IMG/VR virus record: IMGVR_UViG_3300043409_003192
Coordinates: 1-36,473 of that record
DNA length: 36,473 nucleotides
Reading direction: 5' to 3' (one strand)
From: a virus
This document shows, piece by piece, positions 5,608 to 30,291 of the stretch (positions are counted from its first letter, which is position 1; each line of letters opens with the position of its first letter). Below the pieces are notes generated by a model. That model saw only the letters and a list, made by a program, of their open reading frames with translations. It was not told the DNA's origin and searched no databases. The position numbers were made by a program, and so were the translations under genes.

Positions 5608-7251
5608 ATGGCAGAATCGAAAATACAAGAACAAACTACTTATAATGGCCCAATACCTACGGTCTTTAAAAAGATTAATGCATCTGATGTAAAAGTTACA
5701 CCATTTCAAACATATAAATCGTGGTCAGTTATATCAGGTAGTGCAACTTCTAGTGCTTTACCACTTCAAGCAATTTATTCTGATATAAATTATTTACCAG
5801 CATTAGGTTCAAATTTAACATATAATGATGCAAAAAATATAGATGATTCTTTGCAAACGATTACTTATTTTTCTGTTAATCATTTATATTATAAACATAA
5901 ATTAGATCCGATGAAAACATATGGTCCTACTAATTTAAACAGGACACCTAAATTTTTATATCAATCAGCATCTATATTATCATTTCCTCAAGTACGAATT
6001 GGCGAAGGTATTAAACCTGCTTCATTTATAATGTCATCTAGTTTTGAATATAGTATACCTAGTATATATGGTGGTAGTACATATGGTTCTAGTTTGTATG
6101 GCATTGCTTCAGTAATATCAATACCATTATATATAAACTCAGACCGTTACGGCAATTTATATAATGCATCGTATGATACAAGTTCAATAATTTCCGATGT
6201 AATGTTTTATGAAGGATTTAATGAATATTTTGATACATCTAGAATTGATTTTGAATATGCAAATGTAAATTTCAAACCAGGTATAAAATGTAGTCCTGAG
6301 TATACTAATAACTATGGTTTATTAGCAGAGTTTAATAATAATGGTTATATAAAAACAGAACTTAATGGCAATTACGATCGGAATCACGATTATGCAATTT
6401 CATTTTGGATTTATGCAACAGAAACCGTAGGTGTGTCAAATTTAATTATGGCTAAAGCTTCTAGTTCATTAACACCACAATATCCATTTAAAATTGAAGT
6501 AAATAACAATTTTTTAGTATATACAATTGCTGGCAGTACTACATTTAAATCACAACTAATATCTACAATAGAAATTGATGTTGTAAATCATATACATGTA
6601 GTATGTCAAAAATCCGGCAGTACTATGCAAATTTGGATAGATGGAAATGTAGATATATCTGCTACTAATAACCTATTAATTGATACAATGTCACCATTTA
6701 CAGCATCAGCTCGTATTGATAATTCAGATCCATTATATATTGGAGGTTGGGAATCTAATTCAAACATGACCGGAGATATAGATGAAATACGTATTTTTAA
6801 TCGAGCATTAACTGCAACGGAAATTGGATATTTAGCTAATAGAACCGAAGGTGGTACATTTATGCAAACCAATCATATAGGAAACATATTTACAAAACAA
6901 GGTGTTGCTGTTATTTCTACTCCAGATTATCGATTCAATAATATTTTAAATTTACCATATACTGCATCATATCGTAGTACTAAAACAATTTATGAATTAG
7001 GCGTTTTAGCAAATGCTGATGCGGGTGATTTTAATATGTCATCTAATATTTCATTAACTGCGGATGATGATTCCACTTATTATAATTTTGTAACCGGAAG
7101 CGCATTTGCACCATATGTTACTACAATTGGATTATATGACAATGCTGGACAACTTCTTGCAATAGGTAAATTAGCACAACCAATTCGCAAACGTCCGGAT
7201 GTGGATATGAATTTTTTAATTAGAATAGATTTAGATAAGAATATATCATGA
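5608..7251 (+). CDS. LamG/concanavalin-like tail protein
   Basis: This 547-residue protein has a convincing LamG-type jelly-roll domain at about residues 240-412, with the strand pattern YAISFWIYA, HIHVVCQKSG, MQIWIDGNVD and GDIDEIRIFNRALTATEIG. Such domains bind glycans or act as structural modules in phage tail proteins. The N-terminal 230 residues are Ser/Tyr-rich and not recognised. The final 45 residues repeat the TTIGLYxxxxQLLAxxKLxxP module found at the end of the 4272-5552 product. The stop overlaps the next start as ATGA (7248-7251), so the kinase-like gene is translationally coupled to it. A role in the baseplate or receptor-binding apparatus is inferred. Confidence 0.7.
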   Translation: MAESKIQEQTTYNGPIPTVFKKINASDVKVTPFQTYKSWSVISGSATSSALPLQAIYSDINYLPALGSNLTYNDAKNIDDSLQTITYFSVNHLYYKHKLDPMKTYGPTNLNRTPKFLYQSASILSFPQVRIGEGIKPASFIMSSSFEYSIPSIYGGSTYGSSLYGIASVISIPLYINSDRYGNLYNASYDTSSIISDVMFYEGFNEYFDTSRIDFEYANVNFKPGIKCSPEYTNNYGLLAEFNNNGYIKTELNGNYDRNHDYAISFWIYATETVGVSNLIMAKASSSLTPQYPFKIEVNNNFLVYTIAGSTTFKSQLISTIEIDVVNHIHVVCQKSGSTMQIWIDGNVDISATNNLLIDTMSPFTASARIDNSDPLYIGGWESNSNMTGDIDEIRIFNRALTATEIGYLANRTEGGTFMQTNHIGNIFTKQGVAVISTPDYRFNNILNLPYTASYRSTKTIYELGVLANADAGDFNMSSNISLTADDDSTYYNFVTGSAFAPYVTTIGLYDNAGQLLAIGKLAQPIRKRPDVDMNFLIRIDLDKNIS

Positions 7252-7793
7252 TACGATTAAAACAACTTTTACGAGAATTATCTGACTCAGAACAAACGAA
7301 ATTGTTGGATAAAATAAAAAACAAACAATTTCGTTTAATCGGCGGAGGTGATAATGGACGTGTTTATACAATTGATGGAGAAGACAAAGTTTTTAAAATT
7401 ACAACGGAACGAGATGAATTCGAAGTTGCTAAAATTATTGTAAATCGATCAGCTGAATTTACATGTTTTATTCCTGTATATTATGTTAGCGATCGAGAGC
7501 AATTGTATATAATGGCAAATGCAGAAACATTGCCAGAATCCGATCGTATCATTATTGATAAATTCATGGAACAATTCAAAGAATTTGCTCGAGCAGAAGG
7601 CGGTGAAGTTTCTATATTTGATTTTTTAGATGCAGATGGTGCACGTAATACAAATGTTTCACTTGTAAATTTTATACGTGCTTTGCAACGAGATGTTGAT
7701 AAATTAGATATTCCGGAATTTGAATTAGATTTAGATTTTAGTTCGGCAAATATGATGATATGGAATAATAAATTAGTATTAGTAGATTGGTAA
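7248..7793 (+). CDS. Minimal kinase-like (APH/protein-kinase fold) protein
   Basis: This 181-residue protein carries the landmarks of the protein-kinase/aminoglycoside-phosphotransferase fold in the right order. There is a Gly-rich loop, GGGDNGRVY (32-40), a candidate ATP-binding lysine K50 in VFKIT, a catalytic-loop Asp with Asn five residues later (D163 and N168 in LDFSSANMM), and a metal-binding Asp in the final VDW (D180). The chain ends one residue after that Asp, so everything C-terminal to the DFG-equivalent is absent, and the usual HxD/HGD histidine is missing. Family members are normally about 250-300 residues. It overlaps the upstream LamG gene by 4 nt. It could be an active mini-kinase or a binding pseudokinase; the target is unknown. 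Confidence 0.6.
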   Translation: MIRLKQLLRELSDSEQTKLLDKIKNKQFRLIGGGDNGRVYTIDGEDKVFKITTERDEFEVAKIIVNRSAEFTCFIPVYYVSDREQLYIMANAETLPESDRIIIDKFMEQFKEFARAEGGEVSIFDFLDADGARNTNVSLVNFIRALQRDVDKLDIPEFELDLDFSSANMMIWNNKLVLVDW

Positions 7794-15632: not shown

Positions 15633-17705
15633 ATGAACAACATAACAACGTTATTTCCAGGAGGGTTTAAACCATTAACCGGAGCTCATTTAGCATTAGC
15701 AGAACGATATGCTCAACATCCTGATACAGATAAGGTAATTCTTCTTATTGGACCTAAAGACCGAGACGGCATTACCCGAGAAAAAACAATTGATATATTC
15801 AATTTGATTAATCGTAATACAAACATTACAATTCAACCTACTGAATTTAATTCTCCAATAATGGCGGCATATGAATATTTGTTTGCGTTGCCAGCAGATA
15901 CACAAGGTCGGTTTGCTATGGCAGCATCTACCAAAGGAGATGATTATGTCCGAGCAAAAGATTTTGTTCCGAATGTAGATAAATACAAAACTATTGGTGA
16001 CAAGAAAGGTCGAAAAATTCCTGCCGGTGTAGATGCAACCGAACTAAATTTAGATATTGATCCATTGCTATACAAATCCGGAGAACCAATATCAGCATCC
16101 ACTGTACGAGCAGCAATTGCAAACAATGACTACACAACCTTCCGCGCTTCATATCCAAATCAAAATGATGCTGAAGTTAAAAACATATGGCAAATTTTAA
16201 CAGGTTTGCAAGAATCATTGTTTTCAAAAGAATGGTGGGCTACAATTTTACAAGAAGACATTAAAACAGTTGTTGAAGGATATATGGATCCTAAAACTGC
16301 AGAAAAACACAAAGCAAAAATTAAAAAATTAAAGAAATTTTTAGATTCAAACATTGGTCGTTCATTTGTATATGATTTTGCAGATTTTGATAAAACTATT
16401 TATGGAGTTCCACTAACTGAAGCAATACAAATGATTGCAGAAGGCGGTGCAGCAGGCCATATGGCGCACCCATGGGATGATCATTCATTATCATTCGGAG
16501 ATATGAAAGAAATTGTAGCCCGGGCATTAGAAGGTCGTTTGGATATTGAACAAGCAGTAACTGAAAAGACTGATGGCCAAAATATTTTTGTAACTTGGAA
16601 AAACAATGAAATTGGGTTTGCTCGAGGATCTGGAACTATAATTAATCCAATGACAACATCTGCAATAATTGCAGATTTCCAACGCAAACAACAAAAAGCT
16701 ATAGCAGAAAAAGGAGCCGAAGCAGGAGCAAATTATCAACCGGTAGTTGATGCATATAAGGCTTGTGCTGAAGATTTAACACAAGCATTTAACGCTATTC
16801 CTGAAAATACTTTAGCTCAAATATTCAAAAACGGCCTCGTATTTGCTAACATGGAAATTATTTATCCAGCAACTAAAAATGTAATTGCATATGATAAAGC
16901 TCATTTACAATTTCATAATTTAGTTGAATATGATGAAAAAGGAAAAGTAGTTGAAACTGATTTAACTGGCGGTGCAATCATGCAAAAAATTATTCAAGAT
17001 GCAAACGCACATATGCAAAAAACATTTTCATTTATTCCACCGCAACGTATTAAATTAGGCCCAGTATATGATTTTGAAGATCAACAAGCAGCATTCTTTA
17101 ATGAAATTGCACAATTACAAGCAAAATTTAATCTTAAAGAAACAGACGTAATCAGCGAATACCATAAATCATGGTGGCGAGATGTTATTAAATCAAAAGC
17201 TCAACAATTAGGATATAATATTCCAGACGAGTTAGTTGACACATTAATGTATCGATGGTCATTTAATGATAAATCAACAAACATATCCATACTTAAAAAA
17301 CAAATTGCAAATCCTGAATTTTTAGCATGGGTTGATGAGTTTGATAAAAAAGATTTTAAACAATTCAAAAAACAAAATTTAGAACCATTTGAATCAATCT
17401 TTTTGCGATTAGGAGTTTTAGTATTGCAAAATGCAACCAATTATTTAGCAGCAAATCCAGACAAAACGGTTCAAGAAATAAAAACAGAATTAGCTCAACT
17501 TATCAAAGATTTGCAAGTCAAAGGGGATGCTGCTACAATACAAAAATTAGAACATGAACTAAGACGTATACAAAAACTAGGAGGATTTGATGCAATTGTT
17601 CCAACTGAAGGAGTTGTATTTACATTTCAAGGCAATACATATAAAATGACAGGGGCATTTGCACCAGTTAATCAACTTCTAGGAGTATTAAAATACGCGC
17701 GGTGA
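15633..17705 (+). CDS. NMNAT-like nucleotidyltransferase fused to RNA-ligase-like domain
   Basis: This 690-residue protein shows two nucleotidyl-transfer modules. Residues 1-190 match the HxGH nucleotidylyltransferase fold (NMNAT/cytidylyltransferase): FPGGFKPLTGAHLALA (8-23), where the first His of HxGH is Thr, and ISASTVRAAI (153-162), the usual ISSTxVR motif. Residues about 260-690 carry ligase-type motifs: EKTDGQNIFV (311-320; K312 as candidate AMP-accepting lysine in motif I), FANMEII (404-410; motif III), PTEGVVFTF (657-665; motif IV) and YKMTG (670-674; motif V-like, K671). About 230 mostly helical residues separate motifs IIIa and IV, an unusually large insert. It may build or use NAD, or seal or modify RNA; substrate and reaction are not shown. 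It is the first gene after a candidate late promoter. Confidence 0.6.
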   Translation: MNNITTLFPGGFKPLTGAHLALAERYAQHPDTDKVILLIGPKDRDGITREKTIDIFNLINRNTNITIQPTEFNSPIMAAYEYLFALPADTQGRFAMAASTKGDDYVRAKDFVPNVDKYKTIGDKKGRKIPAGVDATELNLDIDPLLYKSGEPISASTVRAAIANNDYTTFRASYPNQNDAEVKNIWQILTGLQESLFSKEWWATILQEDIKTVVEGYMDPKTAEKHKAKIKKLKKFLDSNIGRSFVYDFADFDKTIYGVPLTEAIQMIAEGGAAGHMAHPWDDHSLSFGDMKEIVARALEGRLDIEQAVTEKTDGQNIFVTWKNNEIGFARGSGTIINPMTTSAIIADFQRKQQKAIAEKGAEAGANYQPVVDAYKACAEDLTQAFNAIPENTLAQIFKNGLVFANMEIIYPATKNVIAYDKAHLQFHNLVEYDEKGKVVETDLTGGAIMQKIIQDANAHMQKTFSFIPPQRIKLGPVYDFEDQQAAFFNEIAQLQAKFNLKETDVISEYHKSWWRDVIKSKAQQLGYNIPDELVDTLMYRWSFNDKSTNISILKKQIANPEFLAWVDEFDKKDFKQFKKQNLEPFESIFLRLGVLVLQNATNYLAANPDKTVQEIKTELAQLIKDLQVKGDAATIQKLEHELRRIQKLGGFDAIVPTEGVVFTFQGNTYKMTGAFAPVNQLLGVLKYAR

Positions 17706-17754: not shown

Positions 17755-18609
17755 ATGGCTGAAACACACAAAAGCAAATACAAGAAACCGGAAAATACAA
17801 AATATAAATCTAGAACAGATTTGAAAGATTATACAATGGATGATAAAGACGGAAAACTTAATCCATATTCAAATAAAATTAAACTATCAAATATTTTGCG
17901 TAAAACAGATAAACCTGTGCAAGATGATGGTAATTATGATGTAAAGTATAATGCTGATGATCGTTTATATAAAGATCTAGAAGATGCTGAATATGATGCA
18001 AAGCATGCAGCAAAAGTATTTAAAAAACGTCAAGATGCTGAAGAAAAAGATGTATTAGATGTTCTTAAAGATAAAGTTGAAAATCTTACGAGAGAGCAAC
18101 GTGAACGTTTAGTTAGAGAATATGTACGTAAAAAAATAGTGAAAGTTATTTTAGAACAAACCACTCCAAAAGATGCACCTGAAGAAGAGGCACTAGCACC
18201 AACAGCAACTCCAGATCCAAATGCAGCGCCAGATCCAAATGCAGCGCCGGCACCTGATGCAGCACCAGCACCTGATGCAGCACCAGCACCTGATGCAGCA
18301 CCAGCACCTGATGCAACAACACCCGCACCAGCCACAGCACCCGCAGCCCCAGCGCCAACCGATACTGCCGAAAAGGATGCCGAAAGTCAAGTATCTCCGG
18401 AAACTAAAGAAGCATTAGACGTCGATCGTTTTGTACAATATCTTAAAAAACAAGAAGGAAATATTGCAAAACTTAAATCAATTATCAAAGTAATTGGATT
18501 ATCATTAAATAAAGCGGAAGTTGAAGATAAAGCAAATGTTTGGAAAATGTTAAAGATTACGTCTAATAAACAATTAGCTAAATTGAATACACAATCAAAC
18601 AATAAATAA
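17755..18609 (+). CDS. Unknown protein with Pro/Ala hexapeptide-repeat linker
   Basis: This 284-residue protein has three parts. Residues 1-140 are highly charged and Lys/Asp-rich, with a helical stretch (NLTREQRERLVREYVRKKIV, about 110-129). Residues about 150-205 are a Pro/Ala/Asp linker of six hexapeptide units (PDPNAA then PAPDAA). A helical C-terminal domain follows (about 215-284). The linker DNA is much richer in GC than its surroundings. The family is not recognised. The domain-linker-domain plan suggests a tether, possibly a virion or head-associated protein, since it leads the operon that runs into terminase. It ends 1 nt before the next start. Confidence 0.5.
   Translation: MAETHKSKYKKPENTKYKSRTDLKDYTMDDKDGKLNPYSNKIKLSNILRKTDKPVQDDGNYDVKYNADDRLYKDLEDAEYDAKHAAKVFKKRQDAEEKDVLDVLKDKVENLTREQRERLVREYVRKKIVKVILEQTTPKDAPEEEALAPTATPDPNAAPDPNAAPAPDAAPAPDAAPAPDAAPAPDATTPAPATAPAAPAPTDTAEKDAESQVSPETKEALDVDRFVQYLKKQEGNIAKLKSIIKVIGLSLNKAEVEDKANVWKMLKITSNKQLAKLNTQSNNK
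18211..18318 (+). repeat. Six 18-bp tandem repeats inside a coding region
   Basis: Units start at 18211, 18229, 18247, 18265, 18283 and 18301. The first two read ccagatccaaatgcagcg; the last four are close to ccagcacctgatgcagca. Each encodes one hexapeptide of the Pro/Ala linker. The repeats are in frame and likely vary in number by slippage. Confidence 0.9.
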
Positions 18610-19958: not shown

Positions 19959-21536
19959 ATGTCTCAATTAACAATAAAACAGATTATTCAGCAACAATAT
20001 CAAATGTGTGCTAAAGATCCTGTGTTTTTTATGAGACAATATTGTTATATACAACATCCTAAAAAAGGAAAGATAAAATTTAATTTATTTCCATTTCAGG
20101 AAGACTCATTAACTGAATTACGTGACAACCGATACAGTGTAATATTAAAATCACGACAATTAGGAATATCAACTCTGGCAGCAGGATTTGCACTATGGAG
20201 TATGTTATTTAATGAAGATTTCAATGTACTTGTTATTGCAACAACACAAGAAGTGGCAAAAAACTTAGTAACCAAAGTTCGTGTAATGCACGATAATTTG
20301 CCAAGTTGGCTGAAGGGAACGGTTGATGCAGATAATAAACTTTCACTTAAATTCCGTAACGGGTCGCAAATTAAAGCAGTATCATCCGCTTCCACCGGTG
20401 CACGTTCAGAAGCATTATCATTGTTGATTATAGATGAAGCTGCATTTATTAGGAACATTGAAGAAATATGGATAGCATCACAAGCAACCCTATCAACGGG
20501 TGGGGGCGCAATAGTTCTTTCAACACCAAATGGGGTCGGTAACTGGTTTCATCAAACATGGGCAGATGCAGAAGCTGCAATTAATGGTTTCCACACAATT
20601 AAATTGCATTGGACCGTACATCCAGAACGAGATCAACCATGGCGGGATCAACAAACACAATTATTAGGCGAACGTGGAGCAGCTCAAGAATGTGACTGTG
20701 ATTTTATTTCATCAGGTCATACCGTAATCGATGGTTCTATATTAATGGAATTTGATGAAAAATGTATAGATCCAATTGAAAAACGAGGTTATGACAATGC
20801 ATATTGGATTTGGGAATATCCAGATTATTCCCGCGATTATATGGTTATTGCTGACGTTGCTCGTGGAGATGGTGGTGACTGGTCAACATTCCATGTTATA
20901 GACACATTAGATGTACGGCAAGTAGCCGAATACAAAGGTAAAATTCCTCCTAATGATTTTGGAAACATGTTAGTTACTGTTGCAACAGAATGGAACAATG
21001 CATTGCTAGCAATTGAAAATGCAAACATAGGTTGGGCTGCAATTCAACCAGCATTAGATAGAGGCTATCAAAATCTGTTTTATACCTATAAAGATGATGG
21101 ATATACCGATGCTGATGTACAATTAAAAAAAGGTTATGATATGAAAGATAAGAGCCAAATGGTTCCTGGAGTATCAACAACCACACGTACACGTCCATTA
21201 ATGATATCAGCCCTTGAAATGTATATGCGAGAACGAACTCCTATAATTAGATCAAAAAGATTAATACAAGAATTATTTGTATTTATTTGGTTGAACGGAA
21301 AAGCTCAGTCACAAAGTGGTTATAATGATGACCTTGTAATGGCATTCTGTATTGGGTTATGGTTACGCGATACCTCACTTAAATTGCGACAACAAGGCAT
21401 TGAACTTAATAAGCGCGCCTTATCACATTTTACAAAAACCGATCCGGTTATATACACAAACAACCAAAAACGACAAGATACTGGTTGGACATGGAACAAT
21501 GGAAATACCGACGAAAGTTTAACTTGGTTGTTGTAA
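19959..21536 (+). CDS. Terminase large subunit (gp17-like)
   Basis: This 525-residue packaging motor and nuclease cuts and pumps DNA into the prohead through the portal. ATPase motifs are SRQLGIST (65-72), LLIIDEAAF (155-163, D159/E160) and LSTPNG (187-192). The nuclease domain has IADVARGDGGDWS (297-309, first catalytic Asp D299) and YNDDLVMAF (about 455-463). Walker A lacks the usual lysine (T4 has SRQLGKT), a variant I believe occurs in other phage terminases. T4 gp17 is 610 residues, so this one is shorter. It starts 1 nt after the previous stop without a Shine-Dalgarno and is followed by portal; tail sheath and tube genes, which separate these two in T4, are not here. Confidence 0.93.
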   Translation: MSQLTIKQIIQQQYQMCAKDPVFFMRQYCYIQHPKKGKIKFNLFPFQEDSLTELRDNRYSVILKSRQLGISTLAAGFALWSMLFNEDFNVLVIATTQEVAKNLVTKVRVMHDNLPSWLKGTVDADNKLSLKFRNGSQIKAVSSASTGARSEALSLLIIDEAAFIRNIEEIWIASQATLSTGGGAIVLSTPNGVGNWFHQTWADAEAAINGFHTIKLHWTVHPERDQPWRDQQTQLLGERGAAQECDCDFISSGHTVIDGSILMEFDEKCIDPIEKRGYDNAYWIWEYPDYSRDYMVIADVARGDGGDWSTFHVIDTLDVRQVAEYKGKIPPNDFGNMLVTVATEWNNALLAIENANIGWAAIQPALDRGYQNLFYTYKDDGYTDADVQLKKGYDMKDKSQMVPGVSTTTRTRPLMISALEMYMRERTPIIRSKRLIQELFVFIWLNGKAQSQSGYNDDLVMAFCIGLWLRDTSLKLRQQGIELNKRALSHFTKTDPVIYTNNQKRQDTGWTWNNGNTDESLTWLL

Positions 21537-23449: not shown

Positions 23450-24304
23450 ATGAAAAAATTAAAACATTCGAAGTATAAAAATACCGGCATTCTTTTTGAA
23501 ATGTTAGTACGTAAACTAACTTCAGAAACATTAACATCAGACAAATCAATAACTATTGATATTATAAAAAAATATTTTGGTAGAAATACTGAGCTTGCAA
23601 AAGAATTACAACTATACAATGCCTTGATAAAAGAACAACATAAATCGGAAGCCCGGGCATTAGATTTTATGCGTACAATAAAAGATGCGCATTCTAAATT
23701 AAATCATAACACATTAAAACGTCAAAAATATAATTTAGTTAAAGAAATTTCTGATAATTTTATATTTGAAAATATGTCTAAAATGCATATAAATAATTAC
23801 AAAGAATTGGCATCAATTTACATGTTATTTGAATATGAGGAAACTGATAATCCAAAACAAGTAATGGCGTGCAAATCCGTTTTACTTGAACACGCAATGC
23901 CTAAATCTAAGTTGGTTGAACAACGTGATCCGGTAATGGAATCATTTATAAACCAAGATAAAGATGTTCGGCTATTGACATATAAAATACTTGTTGATAA
24001 ATTTAATACTACATATTCTAGTGTATTATCGGAATCACAAAAACAACTATTAAACAAATATATTACACACGTTAATGATACTGAAGCACTTAAGGAATAT
24101 GTACAAAAGATAATACCTGCTATTAAAACAAAATTAGCTAATCATTCTAAACATATTACAGATAAAGTAGTTAAAATTAAAGTAGAAAAATTAGCAGAAA
24201 TGCTTTGCAACGTTGAGACAATAAAAAAATTAAATGAATCACATATATTAAACTTGATGCGATATATGGATTTGGTTGACGAATTAAATGAGATACATAA
24301 ATGA
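23450..24304 (+). CDS. Conserved-looking helical protein of the head module
   Basis: This 284-residue, Lys-rich and almost entirely helical protein begins KHSKYKNTGILFEMLVRKL. I have an impression of similar openings in other large myovirus head clusters but cannot name a family. There are no catalytic motifs, cysteine clusters or membrane segments. It lies between portal and protease, where T4 has the small core proteins gp67 and gp68, so a prohead-core or assembly role is possible from position alone. It overlaps the next gene as ATGA (24301-24304). Confidence 0.5.
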   Translation: MKKLKHSKYKNTGILFEMLVRKLTSETLTSDKSITIDIIKKYFGRNTELAKELQLYNALIKEQHKSEARALDFMRTIKDAHSKLNHNTLKRQKYNLVKEISDNFIFENMSKMHINNYKELASIYMLFEYEETDNPKQVMACKSVLLEHAMPKSKLVEQRDPVMESFINQDKDVRLLTYKILVDKFNTTYSSVLSESQKQLLNKYITHVNDTEALKEYVQKIIPAIKTKLANHSKHITDKVVKIKVEKLAEMLCNVETIKKLNESHILNLMRYMDLVDELNEIHK

Positions 24305-25059
24305 AATCATTCTTACAACAAATAGAAGAGGCATTTGAAGCTGTTGATACTCCTAATGATATTATTGATGAGCAAGAAAACTATGTAACTGATCCATCTA
24401 ATGAAGATTTAGAATTAGAAGAAATGTCAACTTCTGGGGCTGTTGGTTCATATATGACTCCTAATGCATTTTCAAATGCACCTAATTCCACAGTTCAGTC
24501 TGGCGGAATGAAACGGGTCAAAAATGTACGAGAAGGTATTAATACTCCTCCGAATTATAGATCAGGCGAATATCAAAAACCAGAATCTGAAGAAGAAGAA
24601 TATATGGATAAATTTCCGTTTGCTGACGATGACCAGAAATGGCAACATGCAAAATTTAAGTATCCTACAGAACCATTAGTAGACAAATATAGAAAATACA
24701 GCGATCGTCCTGCACATGTAACGGAAAAATCAAGTGTTGAATATGATTGGTCAGGTGTAAAAAATAAAACTAATGAAAGTGTATATGAAACAATGGATAA
24801 CAAATATGAACAACTCATTGAATCATACCGCAATTTCAAAAAAGGTGATGTAAAACCATCTAGCAAAGTAAAACAGACAATACAAGAAATTGCAATGAAA
24901 CTTCGCGAAATAGAATCATTGGTAAGTAATAATGCACGACTAAAAACGGAATCCGGTGTGACTTCATCACATTATGGACCATCGACAAACAAAGCATTGA
25001 ATAAGATATCTGAACGATTAATAAAAATATCTGAACGAGTAAGAGCATTAGGAGAATAA
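24301..25059 (+). CDS. Acidic, low-complexity protein of the prohead region
   Basis: This 252-residue protein has a strongly acidic N-terminal third (many Asp/Glu, LEEMSTSGAVGSYMTPNAFS), a central charged region rich in Lys, Tyr and Pro, and a helical C-terminal part (about 170-252). It appears largely disordered. Its place directly before the prohead protease matches the T4 core proteins gp67/gp68, which are acidic and processed by gp21; this is inference from position and charge. It is coupled to the previous gene by ATGA and followed 1 nt later by the protease, whose Shine-Dalgarno (AGGAG) lies inside its last codons. Confidence 0.5.
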   Translation: MKSFLQQIEEAFEAVDTPNDIIDEQENYVTDPSNEDLELEEMSTSGAVGSYMTPNAFSNAPNSTVQSGGMKRVKNVREGINTPPNYRSGEYQKPESEEEEYMDKFPFADDDQKWQHAKFKYPTEPLVDKYRKYSDRPAHVTEKSSVEYDWSGVKNKTNESVYETMDNKYEQLIESYRNFKKGDVKPSSKVKQTIQEIAMKLREIESLVSNNARLKTESGVTSSHYGPSTNKALNKISERLIKISERVRALGE

Positions 25060-25060
25060 T

Positions 25061-25690
25061 ATGTCAAAGCAGTTAATAGTAGAATATATACCATTTAAAC
25101 CAATAGGTGCATTAAATGAGAAAAGTGGTGCTGCATATGGAATTCCTGGTGGATATGTTGTTCAAGGAGTATTGCAACGGGCTGGTGCTAAAAATCAAAA
25201 CGGTCGAGTATATCCTAAAAATATATTGATGCGCGAATGCCAACGCTATCAACAAGAATATATTGATCAACACCGAGCATTAGGTGAATTAGATCATCCA
25301 GAATCATCAGTAGTCAATTTAAACAATGTTTCACACAATGTTTTAAAAATATGGTGGAATGGCGATGATTTATTAGGAGCAGTTCAAATACTAGAAACTC
25401 CGTCTGGCAATATTTTAAAATCATTGTTCAAAGCAGGAATTACTTTAGGTATTTCGAGTAGAGGATTAGGGTCAGTTAAAGAATTGCGAAATGAAGGTGT
25501 TGTAGAAGTACAAGAAGACTTTGAATTAATTTGTTGGGACTTCGTATCAAATCCATCGACTCAAGGTGCTTTTATGCGGCCTACTGGCATGAATGAATCA
25601 ACAAATAAAAATATAGCAACAAATAAATATAATGGTGTAAATGGTATTATTACGTCAATTTTATGCGAAGATGGGAAATGTAGGATATAA
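25061..25690 (+). CDS. Prohead core protease (gp21-like)
   Basis: This 209-residue serine protease of the T4 gp21/herpesvirus-assemblin type would cleave scaffold and capsid precursors during head maturation. Visible family motifs are NGRVYPKNIL (47-56), GELDHPESS (75-83, catalytic His H79), ITLGISSRGLGS (127-138, catalytic Ser S132 or S133) and ICWDFVSNPST (157-167). T4 gp21 has 212 residues, so it is full length. AGGAG at 25050-25054 sits 6 nt before the ATG, a better ribosome site than those of the preceding genes. It stands before the scaffold and capsid genes as in T4, though three extra genes intervene. Confidence 0.9.
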   Translation: MSKQLIVEYIPFKPIGALNEKSGAAYGIPGGYVVQGVLQRAGAKNQNGRVYPKNILMRECQRYQQEYIDQHRALGELDHPESSVVNLNNVSHNVLKIWWNGDDLLGAVQILETPSGNILKSLFKAGITLGISSRGLGSVKELRNEGVVEVQEDFELICWDFVSNPSTQGAFMRPTGMNESTNKNIATNKYNGVNGIITSILCEDGKCRI

Positions 25691-26154: not shown

Positions 26155-27111
26155 ATGAATAAATTAAAAAAATTGTATAAAGACTTCTTTGGATATACGC
26201 TTAATGAAGCTGCACATGTACCATCCAATATAATGGATTTTGCTAAAAGAAAAGGGCCATATGTAGTAGCACTTGTTAAGAAAGCGGCTACGTGGGCAGA
26301 GAAATCTGGCAAACAAATTAGTGGTGGCACTGCTATTGGTAAAAATTATAATACCATTATTCTAGATATTAAATATCAAGGAGCTGAAATCTATATTAAT
26401 CTCGATAACGAAACAATTAAATTATTTGGAGAACCAGTTACCGATGCAAAATCATTTGCTCGTGTTTTTAATGGTATTGGTATGTCTAATTCAGATAATG
26501 TAATATTTTCAATTAACGATGAAAAATTAGATGATATATTACGTGCAAATCATGATCGAGAATTAGACTATAAAAAAGATGTAACTGGCGATGTATATTA
26601 TATTTTACCTAAAAAAGAATTCGATCGATTTATTGATTATGCAGATTCGTCTGGATATGATGTAGATTATGAAAATTCAGAAGATTCGGTAATTTATGTT
26701 AGAGATTCTGATACTAATTTACGGGAACAAGCCAACGGCAATGGTTCAACTAAAGAACCAGAACTAGACGAAGCTAAACTAGTTAATGGTATTGATGAAT
26801 ACCAAGGCGGAGTTGTATATGCAATCAAAGATCCAGCACAAGCACAAGCACTTTCTGATGATATTAAAGCGTGGGTTGAAAAAAAAGGTTTTACTATAAT
26901 TAAACGTACAATATCTAAAAGTGGTAAGAATGGATATTTTTATTTTAGATTAGGTGAAGATCCGGCTAAAGATGCGCAACGCATTCAAGGTTATTTTGCA
27001 CAACGTTTAGAATTAGCAGCATTCAAATTCAAAGTACGCGGTTCTGAAAACTCAGTTAGCAAATCACCAGCACCTGAAATGCAAACCAAACAACCAATAA
27101 GAAAAATTTAA
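26155..27111 (+). CDS. Unknown two-domain protein of the head module
   Basis: In this 318-residue protein, residues 1-115 and about 205-295 look like two separate alpha/beta domains, joined by an acidic stretch (about 125-200, VDYENSEDSVIYVRDSD). The C-terminus is basic and Pro-rich. It contains 'LNEA' and 'LDEAKL' near the likely domain edges, a flavour often seen in large-phage core proteins cut by prohead protease, but no cleavage site can be assigned. The family is not recognised. It ends 9 nt before the bS21 gene, so these two are co-transcribed and end at the terminator at 27391. Confidence 0.45.
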   Translation: MNKLKKLYKDFFGYTLNEAAHVPSNIMDFAKRKGPYVVALVKKAATWAEKSGKQISGGTAIGKNYNTIILDIKYQGAEIYINLDNETIKLFGEPVTDAKSFARVFNGIGMSNSDNVIFSINDEKLDDILRANHDRELDYKKDVTGDVYYILPKKEFDRFIDYADSSGYDVDYENSEDSVIYVRDSDTNLREQANGNGSTKEPELDEAKLVNGIDEYQGGVVYAIKDPAQAQALSDDIKAWVEKKGFTIIKRTISKSGKNGYFYFRLGEDPAKDAQRIQGYFAQRLELAAFKFKVRGSENSVSKSPAPEMQTKQPIRKI

Positions 27112-28650: not shown

Positions 28651-30291
28651 ATGAGTTTAAATTCATTATTACAAAGTCCTGATAATTCTCAGAGAGCAGC
28701 TGCACAAGCAGGTGTTCGTAAATGGGAAAGAACAGGATTGTTAGAAGGTCTTAGAAATGAGACAGAAAGGGCAGGAATGTCTCAATTGCTTGAAAACCAA
28801 GCAAGACAATTAGTAAAAGAAGCATCACAAACAGGTACCGCAAATGGATCTGAAGAGTGGGCTGGTGTTGCACTTCCATTGGTACGTCGTATCTTTGCTG
28901 AATTTGCAGCTAAAGAATTTGTATCAGTTCAACCAATGAACTTACCATCAGGTCTAGTATTTTACTTAGATTTTAAATATGGTACAGCTCAGCCAGGATT
29001 TGACAATGACAATTCTAATAGAACAGGTGATCCATTTGGTAATCCTAATGCATTAGATTCATTGTTTGGTGTTACATCAACTGGTTCTGACGCAGCAGGT
29101 GGTCTTTATGGTGCAGGCCGTTTTGGTTATTCAATCAACGAAACATCTAGTGTTGCAGCGGCAGTTACTACTGGTTCTTTGGCAGGATCTGGATCTGTTA
29201 ATTATGATGGTAATTTTACAACTGCATTGACTTCTTATAAAAGAATCACTGTTGCAACTTCTTCATTACCTGGTTTAGATCCGTTGGCAATACGTTCATT
29301 TGCATTAGTTTCTGGATCAACTCCAATTGCTAATTATGCAGCATTTACTAAATTAAATGAAACAACTCAAGGTTCTGTTGACTTCATTATTGATTCAGCA
29401 GCAGTAACAACTGGTTCTTTCTCATTAACAGTTAAATATAGCAAACAACCAACTGATGTTTCAAGAGGTGATTTTGAAGATAACGTTGGTACTTTTTCTA
29501 ATGGATACAATGTAGATGTTGATATTCCAGAAATTAACTTGGAACTTCAATCAGATCCAATTGTTGCAAAAACACGTAAATTGAAAGCAGTTTGGACTCC
29601 TGAGTTTGCTCAAGATTTGAACGCATATCATTCAATTGATGCAGAAGCTGAATTGACTTCAATGTTATCTGAGTATGTATCAATGGAAATTGATTTAGAG
29701 ATCTTAGATATGTTGATTTCTGCGGCTCCAACAACTGAGTTTTGGTCAGCATTGAACAATAACATCTGGAATGGTAATGGATTTACACAAGCAGCAGCTG
29801 GTTCAGTTGGTACTGCAGGTGACGGATTCTATAACACTCAAGGTGGTTGGTTCCAAACTTTAGGTACTAAGCTTCAAAAAGTATCTAATAAGATTCACCA
29901 AAAAACATTACGCGGTGGTGCAAACTTCTTAGTAACATCTCCTTCAGTAGCAACTGTTCTTGAGTCTATCCCAGGATTTGCTGCAGACACTGATGGTACA
30001 AAAATGGAATTTGCTGCCGGTGTTCAAAAAATTGGTGCAATCAATAACCGATACACAGTATACAAAAACCCATACATGACAGAGAATGTAATACTTATGG
30101 GCTTCAGAGGTAGTCAGTTCCTTGAAACGGGTGCTGTTTATTCTCCATATATTCCACTTATCATGACTCCATTAGTGTACGATCCAGTTAACTTCACTCC
30201 GCGTAAAGGTGTTATGACACGTTACGCGAAGAAAGTGGTTCGTCCTGAGTTCTACGGTAAAGTGTATGTACACGGTCTTAATACTCTATAA
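28651..30291 (+). CDS. Major capsid protein (gp23-like)
   Basis: This 546-residue subunit of the head shell has T4 gp23 (521 residues) family features: an N-terminal helical region (1-57), then EWAGVALPLVRRIFAEFAAK (69-88), FVSVQPMNLPSGLVFYLDFK (about 90-109), and a C-terminal part with MTPLVYDPVNFTPRKGVMTR (about 508-527). LVKE|AS at residues 54-59 is a plausible prohead-protease cleavage site, since family proteases cut after Glu; this is inference. Codon use is more uniform and the Shine-Dalgarno is the best in the window, as expected for the most abundant protein. A strong terminator follows 36 nt after the stop. Confidence 0.95.
   Translation: MSLNSLLQSPDNSQRAAAQAGVRKWERTGLLEGLRNETERAGMSQLLENQARQLVKEASQTGTANGSEEWAGVALPLVRRIFAEFAAKEFVSVQPMNLPSGLVFYLDFKYGTAQPGFDNDNSNRTGDPFGNPNALDSLFGVTSTGSDAAGGLYGAGRFGYSINETSSVAAAVTTGSLAGSGSVNYDGNFTTALTSYKRITVATSSLPGLDPLAIRSFALVSGSTPIANYAAFTKLNETTQGSVDFIIDSAAVTTGSFSLTVKYSKQPTDVSRGDFEDNVGTFSNGYNVDVDIPEINLELQSDPIVAKTRKLKAVWTPEFAQDLNAYHSIDAEAELTSMLSEYVSMEIDLEILDMLISAAPTTEFWSALNNNIWNGNGFTQAAAGSVGTAGDGFYNTQGGWFQTLGTKLQKVSNKIHQKTLRGGANFLVTSPSVATVLESIPGFAADTDGTKMEFAAGVQKIGAINNRYTVYKNPYMTENVILMGFRGSQFLETGAVYSPYIPLIMTPLVYDPVNFTPRKGVMTRYAKKVVRPEFYGKVYVHGLNTL

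Follow-up and report, generated by a model that had tools for sequence, protein, structure and literature searches.

The 36,473-nucleotide virus sequence analysed here (the window) encodes a protein in which an adenylyltransferase-like domain is followed by an RNA-ligase-like domain. This arrangement raises the questions of what the two domains are, how general their union is, and what purpose it serves. The gene, at 15633–17705, belongs to a freshwater T4-like phage and adjoins the terminase-portal-head module. Its coordinates and every motif named in the original prediction were verified in the translation: GGFKPLTGAH at residue 10, ISASTVR at 153, EKTDGQN at 311, NMEII at 406, PTEGVVF at 657, and YKM at 670–672. 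Because sequence profiles scarcely detect the protein (a Pfam search of the 690 residues gave CTP_transf_like below the cut-off, E 0.026, and left RNA_ligase unmatched), the two halves were modelled separately with AlphaFold2. The models were built on alignments of homologues from IMG/VR, where at least 117 relatives of the whole ORF are present; sequences from annotated phage records were not included. The models and their structural matches bore out the identity proposed for each half.

Table 1. Features of the fusion gene and of its neighbourhood in the window.
Feature	Position	Strand	Basis
Whole ORF, 690-aa putative precursor: HIGH-type adenylyltransferase, linker, RNA-ligase-like domain	15633–17705	+	ATG to TGA
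HIGH-superfamily (PPAT/NadD/NadM-like) adenylyltransferase domain, residues 1–190	15633–16202	+	Model and structural matches
GGFKPLTGAH nucleotide-binding motif (T/HxGH variant), residues 10–19	15660–15689	+	Invariant residues
ISASTVR motif (ISSTxxR equivalent), residues 153–159	16089–16109	+	S154 and R159 invariant
Linker, residues 191–270: weak helices, then disorder; four L/I-x-E motifs	16203–16442	+	Model pLDDT, sequence
Candidate head-protease motif LQE↓S, residues 192–194	16206–16214	+	Sequence
Candidate head-protease motif LQE↓D, residues 206–208, within recurring SKxWWxxxLQE segment	16248–16256	+	Sequence
Candidate head-protease motif LTE↓A, residues 261–263	16413–16421	+	Sequence
Candidate head-protease motif IAE↓GG at the ligase junction, residues 268–270	16434–16442	+	Conserved in clade
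ATP-dependent RNA-ligase-like domain, residues 271–690	16443–17702	+	AlphaFold2 model; RNA ligases top PDB matches
GHMAHPWDD family signature at start of ligase domain, residues 275–283	16455–16481	+	Conservation
Ligase motif I EKTDG, K312 the predicted AMP-accepting lysine	16563–16577	+	Invariance
FARGSG segment (AR[NG] motif), residues 329–334	16617–16634	+	R331 invariant
Motif III NMEII, E408	16848–16862	+	E invariant
Helical insert ahead of motif IV, about residues 446–654	16968–17594	+	Model secondary structure
Motif IV PTEGVVF (E659–G660)	17601–17621	+	EG invariant
Motif V TYKMTG (K671)	17637–17654	+	K671, T673, G674 invariant
Large terminase	19959–21536	+	PF03237 E 4.8e-13, phrog_2 E 6e-44
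T4 gp21-type head maturation protease, presumed processing enzyme	25061–25690	+	phrog_207 E 2.7e-54
gp23-like major head protein	28651–30291	+	phrog_138 E 1e-66

The first half was modelled with a pLDDT of 84 and a pTM of 0.71, its core (residues 1–190) lying mostly above 90. Its structural matches were PPAT, NadD and NadM, near-tied at Z 13.5, 12.8 and 12.3; the best Foldseek match had an E of 1.7e-5, and the first-half profile matched PPAT in the PDB (E 5e-9). P9, G10, F12, P14, H19, S154 and R159 are invariant (alignment A6), and in the window's clade the HxGH motif reads TGAH, with T replacing the first H and A replacing G. The predicted structure thus combines a Rossmann-like fold, the [T/H]xGH and ISSTxxR-type motifs and a Z of 13.5, as expected of the HIGH superfamily. 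The domain shares this fold and these motifs with NadM (NMNAT-Nudix), NadR (NMNAT-kinase), PPAT and NadD. It differs from them in its RNA ligase partner, in the lack of NadV from most records, and in a C-terminal extension (Dy..F..sYP) that it has in common with the cyanophage 'cytidyltransferase'. The adenylyltransferase fold originally proposed therefore stands, but the NMNAT label was too specific, because PPAT, NadD and NadM are tied as nearest folds.

The modelled fold alone cannot tell the substrate of this domain. NAD maintenance is a plausible role: the arginine of ISxSxxR presumably brings the motif closer to its NadD/NadM form than to its PPAT form, and the NaMN/NMN adenylyltransferase model TIGR00482 (E 0.016 with the window protein) is the best-scoring model for the S-PM2 relative (E 2.9e-6). 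Both points speak against a CoA-type, cytidylyl-type or other non-NAD enzyme whose linkage to the ligase reflects only co-packaging. Such an enzyme, which we consider somewhat unlikely, would suit the nominal first place of PPAT among the near-tied matches and the rarity of NadV (NAPRTase), detected in 2 of 16 homologue-bearing records, most of which are fragments. Set against the constant co-occurrence of phage NadM with NadV (PMC9503650), this low count means that NMN is not assured as the substrate.

The ligase half (residues 259–690) yielded a model with a pLDDT of 88 and a pTM of 0.85. Its best structural matches were Naegleria gruberi RNL (Z 9.2), Trl1 (8.8) and T4 Rnl1 (8.5); RNA ligases as a group scored from 9.2 to 6.7, against at most 6.4 for DNA ligases and capping enzymes, except for one viral-type ligase at 7.0. 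By sequence, the ligase profile found no relevant match in the PDB. Across 37 diverse ligase sequences, down to about 22% identity, E311, K312, D314, G315, R331, E408, E659, G660, K671, T673, G674 and H276 are invariant and H279 and P280 almost so. The assignment of K312 as the adenylation lysine agrees with this invariance and with the motif spacing of known RNA ligases (12 residues from E659 to K671, compared with 14 from E312 to K326 in N. gruberi RNL). The predicted structure, with motifs I (KxDG), III (E), IV (EG) and V (K), places the domain in the ATP-grasp RNA ligase superfamily. Of the nucleotidyltransferase/OB fold originally expected, the nucleotidyltransferase part is present and the OB domain is absent, because the chain stops 19 residues past the motif-V lysine.

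The domain resembles T4 Rnl1 and Rnl2, fungal Trl1 and the Naegleria ligases in its fold and in the order of motifs I, III, IV and V. It differs from them in four respects: it starts with GGxxGHMxHPxDD, its motif V has the form YKxTGxFxPxNQ and is followed by neither a C-terminal nor an OB domain, and a helical insert separates motif III from motif IV. The insert, also foreseen from the sequence, comprises about 210 mostly helical residues in the model, placed between the strands that follow motif III and motif IV. The protein falls outside the T4 Rnl1/Rnl2 families, since the Pfam RNA ligase models give no hit above cut-off and the C-terminal domain of those families is missing. NAD-dependent ligation, one of the roles first suggested, was not upheld: Pfam and NCBIfam recognised no domain-Ia-like segment in the window protein, and a LigA match, weak and sub-threshold, was obtained for one homologous locus only (L003). 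For another suggested role, the attachment of a nucleotide to RNA or protein, the analysis gave no evidence in either direction. The ligase is a newly recognised family without a name in the libraries searched, with at least 586 relatives in aquatic T4-like phages in one scan. The dN/dS ratio is low in both folded halves (0.05–0.30), and the invariant residues in both domains argue for two working enzymes.

The union of the two domains proved to be widespread. Among 237 ligase loci, 40 are cut by a contig end and 197 have a complete ligase ORF; of the latter, 193 encode the adenylyltransferase within the ligase ORF itself and three have it in an adjacent ORF. In the one remaining locus, L003, it forms the C-terminal part of the immediately next gene. 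One fused protein (L246) has the reverse domain order, and at L197 the two domains are neighbouring genes on one contig. Adenylyltransferases without a nearby ligase occur in Lak phages and a few others, so the dependence lies chiefly on the ligase side. The original prediction was thus right about the fusion, which has fold-level support, and a search for the same fusion in other phages, as it had proposed, removed the impression of an isolated case. One cultured phage with the gene is Microcystis phage Mel-JY01. The departure from the NadR (kinase) and NadM (Nudix) pairings also holds, the partner here having an RNA-ligase fold. The available part of PMC9503650, in which 21,191 viral proteomes were surveyed, names phage NMNATs of the NadR and NadM types only, and the accessible portion of a broad survey (PMC7824862) likewise mentions only Nudix- and kinase-linked forms. 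A search of the literature brought up no paper that describes an adenylyltransferase–RNA ligase pairing.

A distant version of the pair exists in cyanophages. Among predicted viral structures, Foldseek matched the ligase model to S-PM2 A0A0M6VVW4 (E 3e-5, probability 1.00), and in the S-PM2 protein of matching length Pfam DUF6267 precedes a cytidylyltransferase-like domain, the order opposite to that in the window. At least 80% of this S-PM2 fusion is covered at one place in 201 phage records. DUF6267 (PF19782, phrog_455) lies directly upstream of a 'cytidyltransferase' gene in the other cyanophages examined in which both occur (S-RIM44, P-RSM6, S-SM1, S-8S55, ACG-2014i, S-CAM3, ACG-2014a, S-RIM12, ACG-2014d and S-RIM2). 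On profile comparison the two transferase groups clearly belong to one family (hhalign probability 96, E 3.7e-9). Between DUF6267 and the ligase, the relationship extends to fold and motifs only: hhalign barely aligns them (the motif-I region alone, E 0.034, probability 1.5%), so that the link depends on the Foldseek match and on the order of the motifs. In DUF6267 the segments TKWDGAP, GVIQGDLLF, PEGFV and KLVDRL follow the ligase order, a long stretch of about 190 residues separates the motif-III region from motif IV, and a HIGH-type transferase is fused or adjoining. It differs from the window ligase in its scant sequence similarity and in being mostly a gene of its own. An obvious targeting peptide is absent from DUF6267 proteins, and no literature text on DUF6267 was found.

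The homologues also reveal exchange between the halves. The first half of the window protein is closest to that of L008 and L236 (dN 0.05–0.07), whereas its ligase half is closest to that of L048 and L005 (dN 0.02–0.03), which points to recombination through the linker and fits two separately acting products. Domain combinations are modular, in ORFs of up to 1740 residues. Four marine homologues (L120, L139, L153 and L156) have an added AAA_33/zeta-type kinase and, in their sequence, a Pol-beta NTase-like signature, GSISNYNWSKFSDVDLH, giving them the apparent make-up of an RNA-repair polyprotein. Phage RNA ligases are known to work alongside kinase and NTase activities (PMC7824862). Given these added modules, RNA repair is the likeliest use of the ligase. 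Another T4-type RNA ligase (PF09511) is present in 2 of 16 homologue records, so a second RNA ligase is no general rule. About half of the close relatives contain an extra domain of about 150 residues near residue 265 (phrog_14518/23027; e.g., L063:6796–7230, FTHFIERLNDPRNEAPI...), which is present or absent between close relatives and is dispensable for the pairing.

The two folded domains are separated by a linker whose pLDDT falls from 62–73 at residues 191–240 to below 50 from residue 243. A HAD-phosphatase identity considered for its FADFDKTIYG segment was ruled out, as relatives have YDFDDFAKTVVGA and the DxDxT motif is lost. The linker is rich in L/I-x-E, the motif after which the T4 gp21 head protease cuts (PMC9026906), and 110 of 112 close relatives have L/I-x-E immediately ahead of GG..GH, at their junction with the ligase. 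With that junction excluded, [LI]xE[AGSD] occurred in the linkers 121 times in 53 proteins below 80% identity (44.8 ± 6.3 after shuffling), 32 times in 19 proteins below 60% (13.5 ± 3.4) and 17 times in 11 proteins below 50% (8.2 ± 2.7). The folded domains of the same protein sets showed no significant enrichment, and of the control motifs in the linkers L/IxD and L/IxK were at or below background and VFMxE slightly above it at one level (55 vs 41). In the window's own clade the linkers hold 29 sites against 6.9 ± 2.4 shuffled, and the ligase is not depleted of them (25 vs 18.2); in the window protein alone, 4 of 10 sites fall within 79 of 690 residues, a modest clustering (binomial P about 0.02).

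Evidence from homologues extends this link to the phage head. Some begin with targeting-like peptides, e.g., MNELTKFLVESVLSE, and in six cyanophage homologues the protein starts with MKKFSxFLxE↓A or MITFHVFITE↓A, which places L/IxE at exactly residues 8–10, similar to the 10-residue capsid-targeting sequence of T4 IPIII (PMC9026906). The S-SM1 adenylyltransferase, a homologue of the window's first domain, is T4-GC190, which mass spectrometry detected in purified S-SM1 virions and did not detect among the virion proteins of S-PM2 (PMC3037559). An N-terminal capsid-targeting peptide is absent from the window protein: its frame is closed four codons upstream and the fold begins immediately. Head packaging is accordingly well supported for the family and less so for the window member, since the N-terminal peptide is missing. 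In their L/I-x-E motifs, the 10-residue targeting-like peptides of homologues and the one virion-detected homologue, these proteins resemble the T4 internal proteins IPIII and Alt, which are packaged in the head, processed by gp21 and injected. Unlike IPIII and Alt, the window protein comprises two enzymes, has sites between domains and not only at the ends, and lacks the targeting peptide. Two neighbouring genes of its head region, 24301–25059 and 26155–27111, start with MKSFLQQIEE↓AF and MNKLKKLYKDFFGYTLNE↓AA, respectively, consistent with gp21-type processing in the same phage.

From the predicted folds, invariant residues, near-obligate pairing and linker motif enrichment, all obtained in this analysis, the best reading is a widespread, real pairing that constitutes a head-packaged enzyme set with a previously unnamed RNA-ligase family. 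We hypothesize that the precursor is co-assembled into the T4-type prohead, where the gp21-type head protease would cut the linker at its L/I-x-E sites and free the N-terminal HIGH-type adenylyltransferase and the C-terminal ATP-dependent RNA ligase. Both products would then be injected together with the DNA, to act within minutes of the start of infection. The ligase would transfer AMP from ATP to K312 and on to a 5'-phosphate end and seal broken RNA, most likely tRNA cut by host defence nucleases; the adenylyltransferase would produce a cofactor of the dinucleotide kind, NAD+ made from NMN being the likeliest, and so counter defence-driven depletion. We give this full scheme, with early RNA repair or NAD maintenance as its purpose, about an even chance of being correct. 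The linker motifs, the targeting peptides of homologues and the virion-detected homologue indicate that the joined state is probably that of a precursor. RNA repair and NAD metabolism, as first suggested, remain the best class of role.

NadM and NadR are themselves fused enzymes, and the window protein might likewise be a cytoplasmic bifunctional enzyme that stays uncut, a fused NAD-maintenance and RNA-repair protein made during infection. The missing targeting peptide in the window's clade and the persistence of the fusion in 193 of the 197 loci would agree with this. The enrichment of gp21 motifs in the linkers of that same clade, the homologous adenylyltransferase in S-SM1 virions, the swapping of halves between lineages and the unfused neighbour genes (L197 and the cyanophages) all count against it, and we judge it unlikely.

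An obligatory coupled reaction by one enzyme is also a less likely reading. Here, an AMP-containing dinucleotide (e.g., NAD or dephospho-CoA) would be joined to RNA or serve as an App-type donor, as might be expected of two AMP transferases working on phosphate ends, whose near-obligate pairing recurs in two distant families and in either domain order. Unfused versions and the head-protease sites that lie between the domains speak against channelling, and the kinase and NTase-like domains of marine homologues suit general RNA repair better, which makes this coupling improbable.

T4 gp63 (Rnl1), an RNA ligase, also helps in tail-fibre attachment. A structural or assembly protein that keeps its enzyme folds for a non-enzymatic role would match the gene's position next to the terminase-portal-head module and the presence of a homologue in virions, but it is just as improbable given the invariance of K312, E408, E659, K671, R331, H19 and R159 down to about 22% identity and the low dN/dS of both halves. 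Least probable of all, and a long shot, is that the pair forms one functional unit of T4-like phages of sea and lake whose dinucleotide is attached to, or activates, RNA ends in the freshly infected cell; if true, this injected RNA-modifying or RNA-repair chemistry would be new, with DUF6267 as its cyanophage form.

The preferred reading, a head-packaged precursor cut in its linker, brings together three hitherto separate threads: RNA repair by phages, their NAD/dinucleotide metabolism and virion-preloaded enzymes. It suggests how phages could mend tRNA or NAD damage ahead of any phage gene expression, offers a reason for the 'cytidyltransferase' in virions, and gives a testable function to DUF6267, a Pfam family of unknown function beside that gene in many cyanophages. 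The polyvalent proteins described by Iyer et al. in 2017 (PMC5512222) are similarly multidomain, modular and predicted to be injected, and some homologues of the present family contain ParB-like and kinase-type modules. Unlike polyvalent proteins, which have a built-in zincin-like peptidase, the family would be processed by the head protease; a term search of the PMC5512222 text did not find the pairing of a HIGH transferase with an ATP-grasp RNA ligase.

Several further observations concern the homologues and the surroundings of the gene. L054 and L061 carry an additional insert with weak endonuclease VII-like similarity, and in the huge phage LR756508 (L002:4507–7248) the counterpart of the window protein carries a ParB-like domain (PF02195, phrog_2859) at its N-terminus. 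At L273:1–5001 (LR756500.1 264500–269500, minus strand), a stand-alone ligase is followed by a gene for a 657-residue protein with a HIGH-type transferase at its C-terminus and a possible second ligase-like N-terminus (ENLDGSTVYVQ) in which the motif-I lysine is apparently lost. In the window, a proline/alanine-rich repeat protein (PDPNAAPAPDAAPAPDAA...) is encoded at 17755–18609, directly downstream of the fusion gene and ahead of the terminase region. A 181-residue protein with protein-kinase-like features (GGGDNGRVYTI ... NKLVLVDW) is encoded at 7248–7793; its N-terminus, MIRLKQLLRELSD, resembles a capsid-targeting peptide, and it is possibly another packaged enzyme.
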